DNA of 64,000 bases from Methanobrevibacter sp. (GTDB taxonomy: Archaea > Methanobacteriota > Methanobacteria > Methanobacteriales > Methanobacteriaceae). The notes under the pieces were generated by a model. It was not told the DNA's origin. It ran no database searches and saw only the letters and a list, made by a program, of their open reading frames with translations. Both the position numbers and the translations under genes were made by a program. Location: assembly GCF_030539665.1 (NCBI RefSeq), contig NZ_JAUNXR010000002.1, positions 62,001 through 126,000 of the forward strand. The letters are read 5' to 3'. Shown one piece after another: positions 7,434 to 64,000 of this stretch (positions within the stretch are counted from its first letter, which is position 1; the number at the start of each line of letters is the position of its first letter).

Positions 7434-8531
7434 TTAATTACTTTTTTTTGTATGTATTGCAGATTCCACCAATGTTGACATTGTGGACAGCAGCAATATT
7501 GATTTTAAAGAACTTTTGTGTATTTCCCTTAGCTTGTTAATACTTTTAAGAAGTTCTATATTTTCTTCTTTTGTAAGTGAAGCTCCTCTCCAAGCGTTTA
7601 TCCAATACATAAGATAAGGATCTATTGTAACCTGCACCTCTTTTGGATAATTTACAGTTAGTTTTCTGCAATATGTATATGAATCCATTAGCTCTTTCAA
7701 GAATCTTGCATCAACATCATGAGTTATTGACTTGTCCTCACCAGAATCACGAATATAATAATTGCAACACATGTAATTGTTTAAAAATACTATGCCTTTT
7801 GCCTTAAGGAAAACTTCAAATGAGAATGCCAAATCCTCCCCGCAACGAAAATCGGGAAAACGAATATCATTATTTTTAATGAAATCTGCCCTGTATATCT
7901 TGCTCCAAACTGCAGGGGGAATGTTTAGGATATCTATTTCTTCCTGAATGTCCTCAATAACAATTTCATCGATTGGCCTATCCCTATTGTAATTTGATGG
8001 ATTGTCCCTTCCATAAAGGATTCTTTTAAAAACGCTTTTCCAAAGAGCATCGGAAATATTTAAAGGATTTGCCTCCTGAAATTCTTCACCAGGATAATTT
8101 GTCTCTAGATCGTCAATAAATGGAGAATAGGATTTCTGAACCTTATCTGGAAATATTCGCCTAAAACGAGCAAATGCAACATCAGCATCATGTTCAACTA
8201 TTGCAGCATATAAAGTTTCGCAAGCGTCTTCAACAAATCTGTCATCAGGATCCAAAAACATCAGATAATTTCCTGTAGCCTCCTCAATCCCCCTATTTCT
8301 GGGAGCGGTTGCAGATCCGCTATTCTCTTCAAAATGAATGGCTTTGCAACAGTCATATTTAGCGGCGTATTCATCAATAATTTCCCCACTATCGTCTTTG
8401 GAACAGTCATCAACCATAATAATTTCAAGATTTTCATGGCCGATTGTCTGATTGATTAGCGAATCAATACCTCCCCTCAAGTGAGGACCTACATTAAAAA
8501 TAGGTAAAATAATACTTATCTTATCATCCAT
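7434..8531 (-). CDS. Family 2 glycosyltransferase
   Basis: A 365-aa inverting GT-A glycosyltransferase, likely cytosolic and building surface glycans. The N terminus KISIILPIFN, the DDCSKDD motif (about residues 42-48) and the metal-binding DPDD (about 92-95) are standard for the family. It starts at the ATG at 8531, which has a GGTGG site; the upstream alternative (8555) would add eight residues without support. It is convergent with the ArcS-like gene, with stops only 5 bp apart, and is transcribed alone. Sugar donor and acceptor are unknown. Confidence 0.88.
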   Translation of the reverse strand: MDDKISIILPIFNVGPHLRGGIDSLINQTIGHENLEIIMVDDCSKDDSGEIIDEYAAKYDCCKAIHFEENSGSATAPRNRGIEEATGNYLMFLDPDDRFVEDACETLYAAIVEHDADVAFARFRRIFPDKVQKSYSPFIDDLETNYPGEEFQEANPLNISDALWKSVFKRILYGRDNPSNYNRDRPIDEIVIEDIQEEIDILNIPPAVWSKIYRADFIKNNDIRFPDFRCGEDLAFSFEVFLKAKGIVFLNNYMCCNYYIRDSGEDKSITHDVDARFLKELMDSYTYCRKLTVNYPKEVQVTIDPYLMYWINAWRGASLTKEENIELLKSINKLREIHKSSLKSILLLSTMSTLVESAIHTKKSN

Positions 8532-8718
8532 AATTTTTCCACCATAAATATACAAAGAATATTATTTTCAATAAAGAGTATATGTTTTTATAGAATAAAT
8601 AATTTAATATTGAAAAGATGGTTAATTTTTGATGTGACAATACATTAGTTATATATATTATTACTAATACACTTATTAATAGACAATTAATTTTCTTATA
8701 TAATGAAGGAGGAATTTT

Positions 8719-9003
8719 ATGTCAGAAGAAATGATTAACAAAGTTAGAGATGCTGTCGCAGTAATAAATGACCCTCATATGGGAGTAAGTATCGTAGAAA
8801 TGGGTATTGTACAAGATATCGATGTAGACGGCGACAAAGCTAAAATTGTCATTAAACCAACCAACCCAGGTTGTATGAGTGTTGCACGTATCGCAGCTGA
8901 TGCAAAAAATGAAGCTGAAAAAGTTGAAGGAATCGAAAAAGCTGAAATTGTTATTGAAGGACACATGATGGCAGATTCCATTAACGAAATGATTAACAAA
9001 TAA
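8719..9003 (+). CDS. DUF59/MIP18-family iron-sulfur assembly-type protein
   Basis: This 94-aa protein is a lone DUF59 domain, as in SufT, PaaD and the N terminus of ApbC/Mrp carriers; the family is tied to iron-sulfur cluster assembly or delivery. The motif VRDAVAVINDPHMGVSIVEMG (split here between residues 9 and 29) and the later NPGC (Cys53) are diagnostic. A strong GAAGGAGG site precedes the ATG, a TATA-like TTATATAT lies about 65 bp upstream, and a stem-loop follows the stop codon, so it is probably a monocistronic, well expressed gene. Confidence 0.87.
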   Translation: MSEEMINKVRDAVAVINDPHMGVSIVEMGIVQDIDVDGDKAKIVIKPTNPGCMSVARIAADAKNEAEKVEGIEKAEIVIEGHMMADSINEMINK

Positions 9004-9030
9004 AAATGTGTCCATACACATTTTATTTTT
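9003..9030 (+). terminator. Stem-loop with T-rich tail after the DUF59 gene
   Basis: A 9-bp perfect stem (9003-9011 with 9016-9024) closes a CCAT loop and is followed by TATTTTT. Archaeal termination mainly needs the T-run, so the hairpin may act in 3'-end stability instead. It separates the DUF59 gene from tRNA-Ile. Confidence 0.6.
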
Positions 9031-9113
9031 AATAAATGGATAACATTTATATATAATGAAAAATATAGTATAATTGTTGATTGAAATCAATATGATTTCT
9101 AATTTGTTTTTAT

Positions 9114-9188
9114 AGGCTAGTGGCACAGCTTGGTTAGCGCGCTCGGCTGATAACCGGGAGGTCATGGGTTCGAATCCCATCTAGCCTA
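9114..9188 (+). tRNA. tRNA-Ile (anticodon GAT)
   Basis: A complete 75-nt cloverleaf. The acceptor stem has seven perfect pairs (9114-9120 with 9181-9187). The anticodon loop is CTGATAA with GAT, flanked by the CTCGG/CCGGG stem, and the T arm is ATGGG/CCCAT around TTCGAAT. The discriminator is A9188 and CCA is not encoded. The D stem GCAC/GCGC has one apparent A-C mismatch at positions 12-23. There is no intron. TATA-like runs lie upstream near 9046-9055. Confidence 0.95.
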
Positions 9189-9311
9189 CTATTTTTAATA
9201 TTTTAACACTTTTAAGATAATTTTATATTCAAATAACTGTTTTTTTATCCTTAATTTTTTATAATTTAACAACCTAATAACTATATAACTTAAATGAAAA
9301 AAGGTTTTATA

Positions 9312-45161: not shown

Positions 45162-46061
45162 TTAAATAGTTTTCTTCAATTCCATAATCTCATTCTTAGT
45201 TAATCCAGTGCAATTAATAATAGTATTCAAATCAACATTCTCAACCAACAGGTTTTTTGCAACTTCTTCAAACCCTTCTTTCTTACCTTCTTTTCTACCT
45301 TCGTTTTTTGCAAAATTAATCACGTAATCTCTAGAAACCAATTCCATGTCAAATCCCTCTAATATTTCCTCACATTCATCCTCATCAAATGTATTTTCAC
45401 ATTCAAATACCGTACGCATCATTAAATTATCCAAAAGATATTGATTGCTAACAAGATTGTCCCTATGGATGTTATTTATAATAGCTATAAAATCCTCAAA
45501 TATTTCCCGTTTTTCACGGCTGAATTTCGCATCAAATCCTATAGATAAAAATATTATATCTAATCTATTTATATTTTCATTATTCTTCAGCTTGTTTTTA
45601 ATTATCTCCAGTTGCTCTTCACCGTCAATGGAGTAATATGGCTTTACATTTATTTTTATTTTGCTTCCCAAACCGTAGTCAACCACATCCACTCTCTTTT
45701 CAGATTCTGAAATAGTAAATGAAATCGCCTTTATAGGCTCCTCATGTATTTCACCAATAGCTGCAACATACAATGCATGCTTTCGCAATGCCTTTTTTGA
45801 AGGTTTGGTGCTTTCAAATTCAATGCTATACAACAGATTGTTTTCAAAGCTGATTCCAACCCTGTCGGCAACCATAGCTCCCCTAACAAGATCAGTCAGT
45901 TCGGATTCTATGAATTTGTCAATCCTTTCGTCTTCACCCATGATCTCCAAGATTGCGTTGATGTCCTCCTCGCAAAAACCCTTCTGATGGTTGTCACGAA
46001 AATGATATCTGTCAAAGCCGTCAGAATTCATGATATTTCTAAGTTGATCAAAGACCTTCAT
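45162..46061 (-). CDS. Rpn-like PD-(D/E)XK nuclease family protein
   Basis: A 299-aa protein. Its C terminus has the charged repeat EGRKEGKKEGFEEVAKNLL followed by LTKNEIMELKK, which is the hallmark tail of Rpn/recombination-promoting nuclease and PD-(D/E)XK transposase-like proteins. The middle has DRVGISFENNLLYSIEFEST (split, about 72-91), a possible nuclease core with Asp and Glu. Rpn-family proteins cut DNA and act in recombination or phage defence. The gene is flanked by 88-bp direct repeats. Confidence 0.7.
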   Translation of the reverse strand: MKVFDQLRNIMNSDGFDRYHFRDNHQKGFCEEDINAILEIMGEDERIDKFIESELTDLVRGAMVADRVGISFENNLLYSIEFESTKPSKKALRKHALYVAAIGEIHEEPIKAISFTISESEKRVDVVDYGLGSKIKINVKPYYSIDGEEQLEIIKNKLKNNENINRLDIIFLSIGFDAKFSREKREIFEDFIAIINNIHRDNLVSNQYLLDNLMMRTVFECENTFDEDECEEILEGFDMELVSRDYVINFAKNEGRKEGKKEGFEEVAKNLLVENVDLNTIINCTGLTKNEIMELKKTI

Positions 46062-54451: not shown

Positions 54452-54465
54452 GCAATAGCTATTGC
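54452..54465. promoter_or_regulatory. 14-bp perfect palindrome before the Ntn-hydrolase gene
   Basis: GCAATAG followed directly by CTATTGC. It is about 20 bp below a TTATAA box (54435 region) and 17 bp before the ATG at 54483, the position of an archaeal repressor operator or TSS. Confidence 0.4.
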
Positions 54466-54482
54466 CAAAATTAGAGGTTAAC

Positions 54483-55568
54483 ATGACAAGCGAAATATTA
54501 ATTTTAAATAAGAAAAGCATCGTATTGGCGGCAGATAGTGCTCAAACAATTGGAGAACATGTCTATCAAGGAATAGAAAAAATATTTGAATTATCAAAAG
54601 CTCCTGCAATGGCCATGATGACCTATAATAATGGAGAATTTATGGACATTCCATTATCAACTTTGATAAAAGATTATAGGCATAACAGGGATTTTTCTAA
54701 ATTGAAAAATATGGAAAACATTCTAAATGACTTCATAATTTATTTGGAAGAAAACACTAAGAAGTTTTCAAAGCCTGAAATAAAGATAGAAATTAATGAA
54801 TTTAAAAAATATGTTATTAAAGAAATTAAAAAATATGGTCTTGAAAACTTAAAAAACAGATATGCTGAATATGAAACTGATGAAATACTGCCGTTTTTAA
54901 AAAATGAATGTTATGATATAGATTTTTATGAAATAAATGGAGAATATGGCATCCCCATAGAAATCTTGAAAAAATTTTTTTCAAATTATCTAAAATTTAA
55001 TGGAAGTTGTATAGTTTTAACTGGGTTTAATGATAATGAATACTTCCCCTCATTTATTGAATTTAATTTGATATTGAATTATGAGGGAAATTTAATATTT
55101 GAAGTGTTCAATAAAGAAACTAACATTGATGTAGGTGCAATAATACCCTTTGCTCAAAAAGAAGTGATTGAAACGTTTTTAAATGGGATTGATGAAACTG
55201 TGGAAAATACAATAATTGATTATTGGTATGACACTATTGAATTTTGCTTTAATGAATTTATAAAAGAAATCAAAAAAGATAATCCTCAAATAAAAATTGA
55301 TAAAATTAATTTAAATCAAATTATCAATGAAAATCTTGCAGACCAACTTATTTTGACCTTAAATGATGCGAAAAATGATATTGAAGAACCTATATTTGAA
55401 TCTGTAAGATATTTATCAGATGATGAATTGGTCAAAATTGCAAAAATTTTGATAAAAATTACTTCAATAAAAATAAAATTATTAAAACAGCTGGAAACAG
55501 TTGATGAAGAGATAAGTATTGCCATTATAACTAAAAGTAATGGATTGGAATGGCAAAATGGAAAATAA
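54483..55568 (+). CDS. Proteasome-beta-like Ntn-hydrolase (unknown family)
   Basis: A 361-aa protein whose N terminus aligns with proteasome beta subunits. After removal of Met1, Thr is residue 1; Asp is at position 17 in LAADSAQT; Lys is at 32 in EKIFEL, matching the Thr1/Asp17/Lys33 catalytic triad, though with a one-residue difference. Beyond residue 75 the protein is unlike 20S subunits: it is longer (361 versus about 200) and has GFNDNEYFPSFIEF and AIIPFAQKEVI. The ATG at 54483 with GAGGT is chosen, because the ORF's further upstream start (54462) would bury the Thr. It resembles uncharacterised bacterial proteins (from memory). It may be a peptidase or an amide-bond ligase. Confidence 0.6.
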   Translation: MTSEILILNKKSIVLAADSAQTIGEHVYQGIEKIFELSKAPAMAMMTYNNGEFMDIPLSTLIKDYRHNRDFSKLKNMENILNDFIIYLEENTKKFSKPEIKIEINEFKKYVIKEIKKYGLENLKNRYAEYETDEILPFLKNECYDIDFYEINGEYGIPIEILKKFFSNYLKFNGSCIVLTGFNDNEYFPSFIEFNLILNYEGNLIFEVFNKETNIDVGAIIPFAQKEVIETFLNGIDETVENTIIDYWYDTIEFCFNEFIKEIKKDNPQIKIDKINLNQIINENLADQLILTLNDAKNDIEEPIFESVRYLSDDELVKIAKILIKITSIKIKLLKQLETVDEEISIAIITKSNGLEWQNGK

Positions 55569-55827: not shown

Positions 55828-56100
55828 ATGCCAGTATACAGATCAGAAGACCTCAAAGGAAAAGAAAACATAGTGAGAGATGAGGAGCATTTCAGAAACA
55901 TAGGGAAAAAACATGCAAAAATAACACAAGAAAAAATGAAAATAATCATCGAACAAATCAAAAATGGAGAAGAAATAAAATTGGAAAATGATGAAAATAA
56001 GCATAATCCAGCATATCAAAAAATGTTAAAAGAAAGAAAAGACAGTAAAAGACGCAGATTATTTCAAAAACATATGGAAAGAAAACTTAGAAATTATTAA
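55828..56100 (+). CDS. Small highly charged protein, downstream of Ntn-hydrolase-like gene
   Basis: A 90-aa protein almost lacking hydrophobic residues, rich in Lys, Glu, Arg and Asn, beginning MPVYRSEDLKGKENIV and ending RRRLFQKHMERKLRNY. It could be a long helix or a nucleic-acid-binding adaptor. GGAAGTG precedes the ATG. It is 259 bp after the Ntn-like gene, in a spacer (55569-55827) with several A/T runs. The pairing is only positional. Confidence 0.5.
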   Translation: MPVYRSEDLKGKENIVRDEEHFRNIGKKHAKITQEKMKIIIEQIKNGEEIKLENDENKHNPAYQKMLKERKDSKRRRLFQKHMERKLRNY

Positions 56101-56150: not shown

Positions 56151-57080
56151 TTAGCCCATGAAATCCAACAATGTTGACTGGTAATCCCTCTTTTTAGGCC
56201 TGGAGACGAGAAACTCCAAAAAGCCGTCCAAGTCATCCTGGTTTTTTATTGCAAAAGAACGATGCCTGTATTCCTTGAGAATCAATTCGTTTCCTGAAAA
56301 GTCAGCAGAGCCTACATCATCAGGCATGAAGCATCCAATCCTCCTGTGCCGCTTTCTTGCATAGTCAACAGTGTTCATTGTTCCGCTTTCACTTGAGCAT
56401 TGGGCCACGAATATTCCGTCAGCCAAGGTTGCAACATACTGGTTTCTTGTATCATAGCTGCTTTTGTTGGCCCCTGCATTTGGCTTGAAGCTTGTTATGA
56501 GACATCCTCCGTTTTCAACTATCATCTGTGCAAGCCTGCTGTTTGGAAGCTGTGAAATCCTGTTTATCCCTACAGGCAGGACTGCAATGGTATCCTCCCT
56601 CATATCAACGGTGGCCATGTGGGCTGTCTTGTCGCATCCCAATGCAAGGCCACTTATGATTGCACGCTCTGTCCTTTCAACAAGGTTCTGGACAAACCTG
56701 TACTCGAAGTTCTGAGTGTCGATGTCAGGCTTGCGAGTTCCTATGACTGCCATGTTCGGCTTTGATAGGATTTCAGTGTTTCCCACTGTGTAGAGAATTG
56801 GAGGGGCCTTGTTTGCCAGATCCTTCAGCTTGCTTGGATACTCCTTGTCAAGGATGGTTACTGCTGAGAATAGAGGGTTCGAATCTATGATATCCAAAAT
56901 GTCCTCAGTAAGCTCCAATGCCTTGTCCAGATCCTCCATGGAGTACTGTTTTTCAAGGTAATCTAAAAACTTATTGAAATTCCCGTATCTGGAAAGAATC
57001 GGGACGTAATCCCTGTTTATCTTGATGGGACTCATCCTCTTGAGGTTTGATAAAAGCAATAGTTCCTTGAATTTTTTCAT
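56151..57080 (-). CDS. DprA/Smf family Rossmann-fold protein
   Basis: A 309-aa protein resembling DprA, which loads RecA onto single-stranded DNA during natural transformation in bacteria. It has the Rossmann motif IGTRKPD (about residues 113-119, usually GSR), ISGLALGCDKTAHMATVD (about 142-159), VLPVGI, and SSESGTMNTVDYARKR. The function in an archaeon is unknown; it may be defensive or act in DNA uptake. I chose the ATG at 57080 with AGGTGA rather than GTG 57089. It is transcribed alone. Confidence 0.82.
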   Translation of the reverse strand: MKKFKELLLLSNLKRMSPIKINRDYVPILSRYGNFNKFLDYLEKQYSMEDLDKALELTEDILDIIDSNPLFSAVTILDKEYPSKLKDLANKAPPILYTVGNTEILSKPNMAVIGTRKPDIDTQNFEYRFVQNLVERTERAIISGLALGCDKTAHMATVDMREDTIAVLPVGINRISQLPNSRLAQMIVENGGCLITSFKPNAGANKSSYDTRNQYVATLADGIFVAQCSSESGTMNTVDYARKRHRRIGCFMPDDVGSADFSGNELILKEYRHRSFAIKNQDDLDGFLEFLVSRPKKRDYQSTLLDFMG

Positions 57081-57421
57081 TGTATTCACCTAAAGGTTAT
57101 AAAAAATAATATATTTTTCACTTCTAATAAATTTTAAGATATTGAAAAAACAGGTTTTGAAAAGAATACCTCAGCATCGGGAAAAGCCCAGATGCTGACC
57201 CATCCGATATTCTTCCAGCATAATGTAGCGTAAAATGTGAATACATATTTCAGTACTAATTCTATTGAAAAAACTATAAATAATCTCCCTTTCAAATGAA
57301 AGCAATTACATGATAAAATAAATAATCGGAGAATTTTAGTGTTTTTGATTCTGTTTGAACGTCAAATGGTGAAATAAAACGTTGAAATCTAAAACACATT
57401 CATCAGGATTCTCCTTTGAAA
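57081..57421. other. Spacer with a hairpin between the DprA-like and DUF4145-like genes
   Basis: It contains the DprA promoter region, an 11-bp hairpin (57171-57198), and a palindrome CTTTCA-AA-TGAAAG (near 57292-57305). No gene seen. Confidence 0.5.
57171..57198. repeat. Stable hairpin: 8+3 bp stem with a one-base bulge
   Basis: TCAGCATC-GGG pairs with CCC-(A)-GATGCTGA around AAAAG. It lies downstream of the stop at 57422 and upstream of dprA, so it may be the 3' end of the upstream gene's RNA or a small RNA. Confidence 0.6.
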
Positions 57422-58780
57422 TTAGAAGATATCGTTTTCAATCTTGTACTCCTTAACTTTGTCATATGCTTCGTTGGAAGTCTTATATCTGCCTAAAGAC
57501 AATATTTTCTCATCACCTATAACGAAAGCATAGAACATTCCATTACGCCTGAAGACGTTATGATTGTTGAAGAAATTGATGTTCCAATAGTTTTCAGCCA
57601 GCAAATCCCTTATAAGCTTTGCTGTGAAATCCGAATTGAATCTTCCGAATATCTGATTCTCGTTAAAGACAACAACCAGATTGTCTTTGATTGCAATGTT
57701 TTCATCAATCTTGGTTTTTTCAAGCTCTGACAATAACCTCCTCTCTTTCATTGACAATTCTTCAGAGGTTTTGGCTTTCAAAAAGAGAGATTTCCTTTTA
57801 GGAAGCATTTTCTCATCATTATCCTCCCTAACGTTAGAATAATTGCTTTCATAAGACCCCTTAGATGAAGGGCTGCTTGTTGGAAAGCTATCCCTATAAT
57901 TGTCAGCGGAATCGTAACTGGAATTACGGTTAGGCAATTTCAAATTACCCTTTTCATCGAATAAAGAACCCTCAAGAGGAGTTGATTTTCCCTCAAAAGT
58001 AGGTTTAGGCACAATAGCCTCCGTGACTGTCTCATAGGAATCCATGACCTTATCAATAACCCTTTTGGAACTATTGTCTGATTTGAGAATCTCATCATCC
58101 ACTCTGCTGTTGGAATCGTCAGCTACAAAACTAATGTCCTCGGTTATTATGATGTCCTCCAATTTGTCCAAGTCCTCGACAGGACCATCATCATTGTCCT
58201 CTTTTGAGTCAATCGAATCGGTGCACTCAACCTCCTGAGCCACAATATTTGAAGACTTCAAATCCTCGTCTGTTTCCAGAATGCTTTCCTCAACCTTAAC
58301 CAGAGGAACATTAGGCAATGTGCTTCCATCCGAATCATCACCAATAATTTCAGAAACCTTATTTTCAACCATGGACTCTATTACTACCTTCAATTCATTG
58401 ACTGAAAAAATGGTATCCTTATTAATATTATCTGCAGGATCATCATATCTCGGAATTATGAAATCATCATCATAATATTTCCTATAAAACCATGTGAGAA
58501 TGTTGAAAAGAATTTTATTCAAATGTAAAGCCCCGGTAGTTGTCGAGTCCTCATGAGTATCCTCATTTCGCTGCATTCTCGCCAAATTCAAAAGACTCCA
58601 AATCTCCCTCGGAATAACCTTATGAACATAAAAGAGATCCTTTATCTTATCATAATTGCTTGAAACATCTGGAGACGGCTGAACCAGTTCCTTTTCATAA
58701 ATCAGATTAAGAATTTGATTAATCAACTTATTTCCATGAGAAGAACTGGTGAAAGAATCTAAAAAAATCGCCTCCTCCAT
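57422..58780 (-). CDS. DUF4145/HEPN-like protein with a C-terminal AP2-like repeat
   Basis: A 452-aa protein in three parts. Residues 1-112 look like a DUF4145/HEPN domain: VIPREIWSLLNLARMQRNEDTHE has the RxxxxH motif (Arg71, His76) typical of HEPN RNases. The middle (about 113-345) is acidic, low-complexity and probably disordered. Residues 347-452 are a copy of the module repeated in the next gene (WNINFFNNHNVF, FYAFV, LGRYKTSNEAYDKV). Start at 58780; no strong ribosome binding site. It is co-directional with the four-repeat gene, 196 bp apart. Confidence 0.6.
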   Translation of the reverse strand: MEEAIFLDSFTSSSHGNKLINQILNLIYEKELVQPSPDVSSNYDKIKDLFYVHKVIPREIWSLLNLARMQRNEDTHEDSTTTGALHLNKILFNILTWFYRKYYDDDFIIPRYDDPADNINKDTIFSVNELKVVIESMVENKVSEIIGDDSDGSTLPNVPLVKVEESILETDEDLKSSNIVAQEVECTDSIDSKEDNDDGPVEDLDKLEDIIITEDISFVADDSNSRVDDEILKSDNSSKRVIDKVMDSYETVTEAIVPKPTFEGKSTPLEGSLFDEKGNLKLPNRNSSYDSADNYRDSFPTSSPSSKGSYESNYSNVREDNDEKMLPKRKSLFLKAKTSEELSMKERRLLSELEKTKIDENIAIKDNLVVVFNENQIFGRFNSDFTAKLIRDLLAENYWNINFFNNHNVFRRNGMFYAFVIGDEKILSLGRYKTSNEAYDKVKEYKIENDIF

Positions 58781-58976: not shown

Positions 58977-60404
58977 TTAATAGTTCCAAAGCTTCTGATA
59001 GGTGTTCTCATCAGTCCTTACCAAAAGGCCAAGATCGATAAGCTGGTCAAGATTTTGCAAAACCTTTGAATCGACCTTGCTTGGAGCTGTAAAACGTTTG
59101 AAGTTCTTTTCAAATTGTTTCAGGTCTTCGAACCGGAATGTGTTTGAGTTCAACTCATTGATAGCGTCAAAGACTATTTTCTGCCATGGAGTCAGACAGA
59201 ATATGATTTCGTTGAGCTCCTCCGGATTGAGTGTTTCTTCCTTTTCATCCCGATTCCAGTTGTTGGCCATCAGTTCATCCCTGGCTTCAATGGCCTCCTC
59301 ACGAGTGTCAAATGTTCCGAAAGTGGTTAAAACCCCATCGATTCTTTTTACCACTGAAAAGCCATTTCTGCGCTTGTAGATATTTTTATCGTGTTTTGGT
59401 TTTTTGACAATCTCATGTTCGAATTCTTCAATCAACGAATCCCTGTTTTTCAAAGCATCATCTAGAGAATCAAAAGATTCCAGAACATACAACATTAGAG
59501 AGTCGTTCATGAAAAACACCCAGAAATGATTGTTTAATTCTATGATATTATTCAAACCTTCCAAATAATCCATATCCCATTCTACATCATTTAGAATATC
59601 TCTAAGAGCCACAGCATCGTCCAGATTATCAAACTTAGCATGAAAATTAGCACCATCAAGATGCTTATTTACAACAAAGACGTTGTTCTTCTTATAGATG
59701 TGCTTCTCACGACGTTCCAGAATATCCTTATCATCAAAATTGGCCAATTCCGCATCTCCAAGATTGGAAAAGACATCCATAAGTTTCGGATATCCCCTTA
59801 CCACTTTGAAGACATAGAACTCATCATTGAATTCAAAAATATTGTGGGATGAGAAATAATCTACATTCCAATCATTTTCTATTAGAATGTCTCTTACAAA
59901 CCTGGCGATATCCGGAGCATCAAAAAATCCAAAGATGTTCTGAACTCCATCCAGGTTTTTCTGAACCATGAACTTCCCTACACGATTTTTGTAGATGTAT
60001 TTTCCGTACTTGCTTGCATTACTTTTTTCTTCATGAGGCTTTTTCGCTTTGGGTTTTTTCTTTTTGAGAATTTTGTCATTGGTGTCATTGGAAATGTTAG
60101 CTTTGGCCTCCTCAAGAGAATCAAAGATTCCATAAATCTTTAGCTTACCGTTTTCATTATGCTTGATAATATAGAACTTGGAATCGTTTTCATATATTGG
60201 ATTTTCACTGTCAAAAGCATCCATATCCCAGTCATTGGCCTCTAGCAATGACCTTACGAAAAGTGCATCCTCTTGTGTTTTGAAAGTTCCATACTTGTTT
60301 CTCTTTCCCTTTATCGTTTTTGTGATTAGGAAAGTCCCATGACGTGTTCTTGAAATGTTATGGCCGTACTTTCCCGCTCTTTTTTGTTTTTGCTGTGTTG
60401 TCAT
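58977..60404 (-). CDS. Multi-repeat AP2-like protein with C-terminal winged helix
   Basis: A 475-aa protein with four copies of a module (about residues 12-106, 134-225, 237-325, 341-390). Each has a basic N-terminal segment with IYK and G-F, then GxFD...A...RD.L...NDW, then a WxxDxF-type half. The pattern resembles AP2/integrase-arm DNA-binding hairpins. The C terminus (about 395-475) is a winged helix (TPWQKIVFDAINEL, VLQNLDQLIDLGLLVR). Short DNA contacts are probable; the role is unknown. It shares the module with the preceding gene, so the two probably belong to one system. Confidence 0.6.
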   Translation of the reverse strand: MTTQQKQKRAGKYGHNISRTRHGTFLITKTIKGKRNKYGTFKTQEDALFVRSLLEANDWDMDAFDSENPIYENDSKFYIIKHNENGKLKIYGIFDSLEEAKANISNDTNDKILKKKKPKAKKPHEEKSNASKYGKYIYKNRVGKFMVQKNLDGVQNIFGFFDAPDIARFVRDILIENDWNVDYFSSHNIFEFNDEFYVFKVVRGYPKLMDVFSNLGDAELANFDDKDILERREKHIYKKNNVFVVNKHLDGANFHAKFDNLDDAVALRDILNDVEWDMDYLEGLNNIIELNNHFWVFFMNDSLMLYVLESFDSLDDALKNRDSLIEEFEHEIVKKPKHDKNIYKRRNGFSVVKRIDGVLTTFGTFDTREEAIEARDELMANNWNRDEKEETLNPEELNEIIFCLTPWQKIVFDAINELNSNTFRFEDLKQFEKNFKRFTAPSKVDSKVLQNLDQLIDLGLLVRTDENTYQKLWNY

Positions 60405-60917: not shown

Positions 60918-63900
60918 GTGGTTTTTCTGTTTAAAAAACATAATATAGAAAATGAATTAAAAAGCATAAACGAATCAGATTTTCAAAATTTAATCAATGA
61001 ATTTTTATATTGGAAAGGTTATATCCCCTGCACTGCTGATGGAAGCCAAGTAGGTAAAAATAAAACAACACGAGGAAATCCAGACAGCCTTTTTAAAAAC
61101 AAAGATGGGAAATATGTATTATGTGAATATACCACACAACAAAATGGCATTGAGGGAAAGTTAAAATCAGACTTAAAACATTGTTTAAAAACTTCTATTC
61201 CAAAATCAGAAATTGCAGAAGTCATATTGGCCTGCAATGTCAAAATAAAATCTGATTACGAACATAAATTAAACGAAGAATTAAAAAAGATTACTGGAAA
61301 TAATGGAACACATATAAAATTAACCATTTATAATATACAAAATTTAGCTTTAGAATTATCAAAATGTTCATTTTCATTTGAATATTTTAAGAATTTAAAT
61401 TTTGAGGATATATATTCTTTAAATAGTTTTGTTGAAAAAGGCCAAAAAGGCATGAGACCTAATTTTAAAAATCCTTTTATCAGTATTGAAAAAAATGAAA
61501 TTAAAATAGTTGAAGAAATTTCCAAACAAATATTATGTAAAAACAAAATTGCAATATATGGAAACCAAGGAATAGGAAAAACTAGATTATCAATAGAAGT
61601 TGCAAGAGAACTTAAAGAAAAACACTATTATCAAATAGTGTTTATTACAAGAATAAATAACCAAATAAAAACCAATATTCGAACTCTATTAGATTATAAT
61701 GAAAAATTTTTAATAGTATTTGATAATTTTGATGAGACATCTGAAAATTTAGAAGAAATAATTAATCTGTTAGAAGAATATGAACAAAAAGATATAAAAA
61801 TAATATTTACCTTAAGAAATCAATTTAAAACCATTTTTGAAAAAACATTAAGTAATTACAAAATTGAAAAAATTGAATTAACAAAAATGGATGATGTAAC
61901 TTTAAAAAATTTAATTTCATCTCTTTTAAAAGAAAATAACTTAACCGCCACAGAATCATTTTTAGAAAAAATTGTTAATATATGTGATGGAAACCCAAGT
62001 CTTGGTATGATGGCTATTCTCCCTATAATTAAGGATGATAATTATGAGTATTTCCAAACTCCACTAAAAATATATGAAAATTATTTTAACAATTATAAAA
62101 ATATTGATTTATATTTTGATGAATCTCTTCAAAAAACATTTGGAGCCATATCTTTCTTCGGACATGTCGATAAAGAGAATACTGAAGTAATTACTTTTAT
62201 AAAAGAAACATTATCAATTACCGCCGAAGAACTCTCCTCCAATATTAAAAAACTTAATAAATTAGAATTTGTTGAACTCAATGCTGAAAAAAATATTGTA
62301 AGAATATCTGACACCATTTTATCAACTTATATCTTCTATAAAACATATATTGAAGATAAACTTCTTGATTTAAACTTATGGTTAAATTATTTTATGAACA
62401 ACAACTTTGATAGAATATACAGCAATATTGTAGACATAACTAACACATTTGGATTTGAAGTAGTAAATTCAAAAATAAAAGAAATAACTAAAAATTTATT
62501 AGAAACTTTAGAAGAAAAAAATGAGAAACTTTTATATTTTTATAAGATGTTTTATGCTTTTTATGACACCAAAACCCTTATTTTCTTAAAGAAGTATGTT
62601 GACGGATTAGATTATGAGGAATTTGATTTAAATCAAAACCTTCAAAAAGCTTACCATTACCATTATTACGAATATATGGAATTGTTATCAAAATTATATT
62701 TATTAGATGAAAATATTTCAGAAAAGGCATTGTTAATAACAATCAAATATATCAAAAAACAATCTTCAAAATTTCTCGATATATCCAAATTAGTTAATGA
62801 TAAATTTACATTTAATAGAAGAAGCGTAGATAATAAATTCAAAAATCAATTTTTCCTAATAGATTTTTTAAAAAACTTTGACACACCAAAAGAACAGGAA
62901 ATTGCAGAAAAATTATTCTTATATTATATAAAAGATACAAATTTCTTTTGGGAAGAACATATTGAACAACAAATTCAAAATATTAATATAACATTTATTC
63001 GTTTTAAAATACCTCATACCAAAGAACTAAGTGATTTAAGAACAAGTGCAATAAACGAAATATTTTCATTATATGGTAAATATCCTGAAGTACACACATT
63101 AATTAATGAATATTGCAGAAGTATTGTGAAAGGTAATGAAGATTTAATAAAAAAAGAACAAATTCTTTTTTCAGATTTCTTCAATAAACAAAGCAAAAAT
63201 AACATTTTAACCAATATTATTTATTTAAACTATTGTAAATCCATTAAAAGAATGAATATAATGCCCTCAAATGACTTAAATTCGTTTAAAGAAAATAATG
63301 CTGTTTTAAATATAATAAACATTTATACAACATTAAATTATGAAGTTGAAAATCATAAAAATGAAAAAGAAATAAAAAACTTAATAATTTCAGATTTAGA
63401 GAACAAAAATATTGACTATGTTAAAAATATTCTAATAACACTTGATAATTTAACTAGTACTTACTCCGATAGCAACTATAACATATATGTTTCACTTTTA
63501 ATGGAAATTTTGCATGAAATAAATAAAGAAATGTTTTATGAAATTTTCAATTATTATGTAGAAGAACAATATACTTTAGGAATTGATAATTTAATAAAAA
63601 AAATACTAACAAACGAATTAATAGACCCAAAAATATTATATTCTTCTTTAAATATCTATCCTAATGAAGAAAAAAATAATTATAAACTAATATTTTTTAC
63701 ATTTATTTTAGAAAAAAATATTGATAAAGAAATATTCAAAGAATTCATAAAGTTTATTAATTCTGATAAAGGAGTATTTGATACACATTATTTTGATTCT
63801 TTTCTAAAATATAATCCTATCTTTTTAGAAAATTTAGATAAAATTGAAAATCGAGAAAATGAAAGCAACATAATACAATATCTCTCAAAACATCTTATCA

Positions 63901-64000
63901 ATTCTGAGAAAAAGCATTATATTTGGTGGGAATTTTGTTGTGAATTTAAAGAATATTTCAAAAATAACACCGATTTATTAAAAGAATTCTACATCTCTTC
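60918..64000 (+). CDS. STAND-type NTPase with N-terminal PD-(D/E)XK-like domain (partial)
   Basis: At least 1,027 codons, running off the right edge. The frame opens right after TAG (60915-60917) with GTG at 60918; an AGGTGG site could also place initiation at CTG 60927. No in-frame ATG is near. Residues 20-110 look like a restriction-endonuclease fold: Pro55-Asp56 in GNPDS, Glu70 in LCEYTTQ. P-loop GNQGIGKT is at 215-222, Walker B FLIVFDN at 264-270, and FTLRNQF fits sensor Arg. The remaining part is long helical repeat sequence. It resembles nSTAND/AVAST-like (Avs4-type) defence proteins. Confidence 0.75.
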   Translation, partial: MVFLFKKHNIENELKSINESDFQNLINEFLYWKGYIPCTADGSQVGKNKTTRGNPDSLFKNKDGKYVLCEYTTQQNGIEGKLKSDLKHCLKTSIPKSEIAEVILACNVKIKSDYEHKLNEELKKITGNNGTHIKLTIYNIQNLALELSKCSFSFEYFKNLNFEDIYSLNSFVEKGQKGMRPNFKNPFISIEKNEIKIVEEISKQILCKNKIAIYGNQGIGKTRLSIEVARELKEKHYYQIVFITRINNQIKTNIRTLLDYNEKFLIVFDNFDETSENLEEIINLLEEYEQKDIKIIFTLRNQFKTIFEKTLSNYKIEKIELTKMDDVTLKNLISSLLKENNLTATESFLEKIVNICDGNPSLGMMAILPIIKDDNYEYFQTPLKIYENYFNNYKNIDLYFDESLQKTFGAISFFGHVDKENTEVITFIKETLSITAEELSSNIKKLNKLEFVELNAEKNIVRISDTILSTYIFYKTYIEDKLLDLNLWLNYFMNNNFDRIYSNIVDITNTFGFEVVNSKIKEITKNLLETLEEKNEKLLYFYKMFYAFYDTKTLIFLKKYVDGLDYEEFDLNQNLQKAYHYHYYEYMELLSKLYLLDENISEKALLITIKYIKKQSSKFLDISKLVNDKFTFNRRSVDNKFKNQFFLIDFLKNFDTPKEQEIAEKLFLYYIKDTNFFWEEHIEQQIQNINITFIRFKIPHTKELSDLRTSAINEIFSLYGKYPEVHTLINEYCRSIVKGNEDLIKKEQILFSDFFNKQSKNNILTNIIYLNYCKSIKRMNIMPSNDLNSFKENNAVLNIINIYTTLNYEVENHKNEKEIKNLIISDLENKNIDYVKNILITLDNLTSTYSDSNYNIYVSLLMEILHEINKEMFYEIFNYYVEEQYTLGIDNLIKKILTNELIDPKILYSSLNIYPNEEKNNYKLIFFTFILEKNIDKEIFKEFIKFINSDKGVFDTHYFDSFLKYNPIFLENLDKIENRENESNIIQYLSKHLINSEKKHYIWWEFCCEFKEYFKNNTDLLKEFYIS

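Follow-up and report, generated by a model that had tools for sequence, protein, structure and literature searches.

What does the 361-aa protein encoded at 54483–55568 (+ strand, the stop being counted in the end coordinate) do, and is it a relative of the proteasome? We addressed this within the window, that is, the whole 64,000-nucleotide stretch of Methanobrevibacter DNA analysed here, and in relatives of the protein across bacteria, archaea and phages. A GAGGT motif at 54474–54478 (+) is the likely Shine-Dalgarno sequence of the ATG at 54483. An in-frame TTG lies upstream at 54462, and TTG is the start codon of several family members; we nevertheless place the start at ATG 54483, because all relatives align from Met-Thr and the upstream extensions carry no conservation. 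In three archaeal members (L042:2531, L038:9860 and L065:4886) the conserved start aligns to ATT and not to ATG, which suggests that ATT may serve there as a rare start codon. Because starts vary in this way, with several TTG and three ATT codons preceding the Thr codon, the conserved position is the Thr directly after the initiator.

The preliminary description had proposed a proteasome-like catalytic set consisting of this Thr, an Asp and a Lys. Numbered without the initiator Met, these are Thr1 (54486–54488, +), Asp17 (54534–54536, +) and Lys32 (54579–54581, +), corresponding to T2, D18 and K33 when Met is counted. The relatives bear the proposal out: the three residues are the sole invariant columns in an alignment of 35 Methanobacteriaceae relatives at 22–36% identity. 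In a 69-sequence alignment spanning many phyla, D18 and K33 are invariant and T2 is kept in >90%, with Ser replacing the Thr nucleophile in two members. Judged from the alignments, this conservation is far beyond chance. At the position manually aligned to the oxyanion-hole Gly47, members carry Gly or Asn, which is Asn49 in the window protein. Two further segments of the window protein correspond to motifs conserved in the family: GFNDNEYFPSF (G..FPS) and PFAQ (FAQ). The window copy and several other archaeal copies lack the RKHYF segment found at the C terminus of most members. Among the archaeal members the window copy is a divergent one, and its active-site residues are intact.

Single-sequence searches of Pfam, NCBIfam, PADLOC and PDB with the window protein gave no match; this includes the Pfam model PF00227, and PADLOC has no model for the hydrolase. 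Apart from a match to phrog_5990 (E = 7.7e-44), a 427-aa phage family without assigned function, the relationship surfaced only through family profiles and fold. The family profile matched the Thermoplasma 20S beta subunit (1pma_B) at both ends (E = 1.9e-4), pairing Thr2 and Lys33 with the mature Thr1 and Lys33 and aligning the C-terminal GG.IDVAVI strands with their Thermoplasma counterpart. By profile match, alignment and model, these strands S10–S11 ('ETVDEEISIAIITKSNGLEW'; 55494–55553, +) are the counterpart of 'SGGMIDVAVITRKDGYV' in 20S beta. An AlphaFold2 model computed from the 69-sequence alignment has a proteasome-beta fold (pLDDT 89, pTM 0.85). In a structure search its top PDB matches were yeast, human and archaeal 20S beta subunits (E 5e-6, with TM by target length reaching about 0.6), and Anbu was within the top 50 solved structures. 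Helices 104–173 and 238–309 of the model are insertions after H1/H2 and between H3/H4, which we delimit as insertion 1 (about residues 97–160; 54771–54962, +) and insertion 2 (about residues 250–309; 55230–55409, +). The short hydrolase forms in the 35-relative alignment lack insertion 1 and have a reduced insertion 2.

The model, the 20S beta matches and the profile alignment therefore describe a beta-like subunit that is complete and carries helical insertions. The remainder of the protein, previously regarded as unrelated to proteasome subunits, thus completes the beta fold and adds two helical insertions to it. Catalytic conservation, profile match and predicted fold together support the earlier assignment of the protein as a proteasome-beta-like Ntn hydrolase. 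Met removal would expose Thr1 as an N-terminal nucleophile, and Thr1, Asp17 and Lys32 would form the active site, an activity that we infer from conservation and fold. There is no propeptide and hence no processing beyond Met removal, so the earlier suggestion of a self-processing protease falls away.

We found that the hydrolase genes are almost always followed by a small gene. A same-strand ORF of 40–100 aa whose start falls between −40 and +60 nt relative to the hydrolase stop is present behind 186 of 202 family genes; among the controls, 838 further long ORFs taken from the same DNA, 227 are followed by one. Most exceptions have a 34–37 aa ORF, an overlapping ORF or an ORF slightly farther off. 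The partner set comprises 155 distinct sequences. Forty of them make up one homologous family, drawn from numerous bacterial and archaeal phyla, whose members share a G..LA.ESL.KI helix and an [FY][FYL]P motif with a single invariant Pro. The profile of this family matches 43 of 40,753 ORFs, all of them in the slot behind a hydrolase; four of the 43 were listed as 'elsewhere' and occupy the same slot inside a longer open frame. The remaining partners split into many small families and the partner therefore evolves fast. Its sequences are nevertheless constrained: a median dN/dS of 0.19 over 62 non-independent pairs indicates that the partner ORFs are under purifying selection, and partner distances follow hydrolase distances (r = 0.75; permutation maximum 0.30). 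The modelled partner is mostly helical, and because pTM is 0.37 despite a pLDDT of 81 it is predicted to have no compact fold alone. No natural hydrolase-partner fusions were found among long hydrolase C-termini. The family at large is a compact two-gene module in which the hydrolase comes first and the partner is a fast-evolving, partly unstructured protein of 35–100 aa.

For the window copy, the usual slot contains no ORF of at least 35 aa. The next ORF (90 aa; 55828–56100, +), at +260 nt from the hydrolase, is a partner candidate by position. Homology of this ORF to the partners of near relatives was rejected, as 866 of 20,000 shuffles reached its score, which is not significant, and it has almost no homologue in the family. 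The partner of the window copy may have been lost or replaced; the module reading is a property of the family at large, and the 90-aa ORF is an unproven candidate.

Other genes of the window, on both sides of the hydrolase, were recorded alongside. The gene at 56151–57089 (−) encodes a DprA-family protein (PF02481, 1.3e-46) in an archaeon, and the PADLOC models ShosA and PsyrA also match it. Two genes at 57422–58780 and 58977–60404 (−) have in common 'IYKxRxGxFxVxKxxDGxxxxFGxFDxxxxAxxVRDxLxxNxWNxD'-like repeats with no Pfam family, and the second has a weak DpnI_C HTH match. A large protein encoded at 60918–64000 (+), open at the window end, has a PD-(D/E)xK-like N terminus and a P-loop, 'IYGNQGIGKTRL'; judged by eye it is STAND-type NTPase-like, and PADLOC gave no match for it. 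The protein encoded at 45162–46061 (−) has no Pfam match and ends in 'EGRKEGKKEGFEEVAKNLL', which we take to be typical of Rpn/transposase-nuclease-like proteins.

A third, RelE/ParE-like ORF is present in ten distinct archaeal loci, with short and long hydrolase forms, and the partner ORF in these loci measures 67–97 aa. Three of the five third genes tested exceed the Pfam cut-off (PF05016). The four long-form partners of RelE loci keep a G...A.[EK].[LMI] helix motif (4 seen against 0.31 expected), an excess to be taken as indicative because the motif was picked after looking. In some Methanobacteriaceae loci the partner is longer and looks antitoxin-like, and a RelE/ParE-type toxin gene comes after it.

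The two genes of the module also decay differently. At 14 loci of one archaeal partner family the hydrolase is broken or missing while the small ORF is mostly open, and one array has four small-gene copies beside just a short hydrolase remnant. Few intact hydrolases stand without a partner, and one seemingly orphaned partner, G041, turned out to be spurious. This asymmetry is suggestive of the small protein being the protective member, a reading tempered because short ORFs outlast a 360-codon gene neutrally and several of the assemblies are drafts.

To place the family, we surveyed its distribution. A single-sequence genome scan found no relative; a search of 139 Methanobacteriaceae genomes found relatives in 38, in a patchy pattern. 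Wider scans brought in 465 relatives from genomes and 153 from viruses. Of each set we retained the best 80, and these cover numerous bacterial and archaeal phyla. As stated in the preliminary description, the window copy is unlinked to the core proteasome genes: the alpha and beta genes of this genome lie on other contigs. Copies are found as cargo at the ends of prophages and satellites. The family gene is the next-to-last gene of the Streptococcus satellite Javan103 and the last gene of the Streptococcus prophage Javan85, and lysis genes or antiterminator Q adjoin the copies in Providencia and Stenotrophomonas phages and in an E. coli prophage. Members were also seen inside phage structural or late regions (L069, Porphyromonas phage, 8001–9245; L233, E. 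coli, 10957–12240), and the small ORF 3′ of the E. coli copy is unannotated. Two rhizobial plasmid copies (L237 and L238) lie no more than a few kb from multiubiquitin and ThiF-family genes, which represent a bacterial ubiquitin-like conjugation locus. The 114 proteins neighbouring chromosomal copies are mostly housekeeping, with a few restriction-modification, AbiE and Fic matches; on these counts, which stand without a control set, residence in defence islands is not supported.

Our best explanation, which we favour tentatively, is that the hydrolase is a toxin-antitoxin-like effector restrained by its small partner. It is the best explanation because of the catalytic set and fold, the partner slot, the purifying selection, the distance correlation, the RelE loci, the decay and the cargo positions. 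The small protein would bind the hydrolase and inhibit it, like an antitoxin or immunity protein. Loss or inactivation of this inhibitor, for example after phage infection, would free the hydrolase, which would then cut or modify proteins so that growth stops; such toxicity could serve a defence role. A wider claim, that bacteria, archaea, prophages and phage satellites share a widespread two-gene conflict module of a hydrolase effector and a hypervariable 35–100 aa cognate inhibitor encoded immediately behind it, sometimes extended by a RelE toxin gene, is possible, and we put it forward with somewhat more reserve. Counting against an effector and its inhibitor are the housekeeping neighbours, the lack of a PADLOC model and the empty slot of the window copy. 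The defence effector named in the preliminary description gains some support from the partner gene, the RelE variants and the prophage and satellite cargo; chromosomal neighbours showed no defence-island enrichment.

The partner data can also be read in terms of ligation, as the preliminary description did when it named Connectase. Connectase belongs to the same superfamily and ligates (PMC8665760), so the hydrolase could be a Connectase-like ligase or processing enzyme acting via a Thr1 acyl-enzyme, with the small protein as its dedicated substrate or tag. One substrate gene beside each enzyme gene would fit the partner slot, tandem small-gene copies could be several substrates, and the invariant Pro of the largest partner family could be a recognition site. 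We consider this rival unlikely: no conserved tail or cleavage motif was found across the partner families, the signature two-helix insertion of Connectase between S3 and S4 is absent from the AlphaFold2 model, and orphan small genes would be useless without the enzyme.

It is likewise improbable that the protein is a peptidase serving ordinary cell functions, its partner an assembly chaperone or adaptor and its presence in phages incidental. The solitary position of chromosomal copies among housekeeping genes and the purifying selection on the partner gene agree with such a role, and small helper factors are often needed for proteasome assembly. However, a housekeeping function fits poorly with the patchy presence in Methanobacteriaceae, the frequent pseudogenes and orphan partners, the cargo positions in satellites and prophages and the RelE-bearing variants.

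That the hydrolase is instead the protease of a toxin-antitoxin locus, degrading the small protein as the antitoxin of RelE or other toxins, is quite improbable, since RelE is absent from most of the bacterial, archaeal and phage loci, which would then be missing the toxin, and the neighbours examined included no linked AAA+ unfoldase, even though antitoxins are classic protease substrates and the ten archaeal loci have the order hydrolase, antitoxin-like ORF, RelE/ParE in short and long forms.

If the hydrolase is indeed an effector held by its small partner, it would be a toxin-antitoxin or phage-defence effector among proteasome relatives, the first as far as we know, and the family could give new sequence-specific proteases or ligases. 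The literature consulted, which consisted of published papers and mostly of freely accessible ones, gave no link of proteasome-like proteins to toxin-antitoxin systems or phage defence; a Salmonella prophage defence protein that came up is an ATPase and unrelated. Many proteins of the proteasome-like superfamily have no assigned function, and here the partner gene makes function testable in two-gene experiments.

Finally, we compared the family with known systems. With RelBE and ParDE it shares, in ten archaeal loci, a RelE/ParE toxin gene placed behind a small antitoxin-like ORF; in contrast to them, a hydrolase gene precedes, and the toxin is missing in most family loci and in the window. 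Connectase, a ligase within the proteasome-like superfamily (PMC8665760), is likewise methanogen-borne, proteasome-like and equipped with Thr1, but it lacks H1/H2 and has the S3/S4 insertion, whereas the window protein has H1/H2 and other insertions. The 20S beta subunit (PF00227; 1PMA) has the same fold, catalytic Thr/Asp(Glu)/Lys and GG.IDVAVI strands, and differs in that the family has no propeptide, contains two large insertions and does not conserve the Ser169 position. The closest description is that of the uncharacterised PMI-4 (proteasome homolog with multiple insertions 4; Fuchs, Alva, Lupas 2021, PMC8665760). PMI-4 shares the beta-like core, Thr1/Asp17/Lys33, the lack of a propeptide, the two insertion sites (one following H1/H2, the other between H3 and H4) and a distribution that takes in bacteria, Euryarchaeota and phages. 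PMI-3 has the same layout, and Table 1 of the survey lists no phage or Firmicute members for it (PMC8665760). The layout of the window protein and the spread of its family fit PMI-4, the two being compared by description only. For PMI-4 the survey reported no informative genomic context and described neither a small partner gene nor RelE-bearing variants (PMC8665760). Both are new here, and the near-universal small partner gene provides a genomic clue where the published survey had none.
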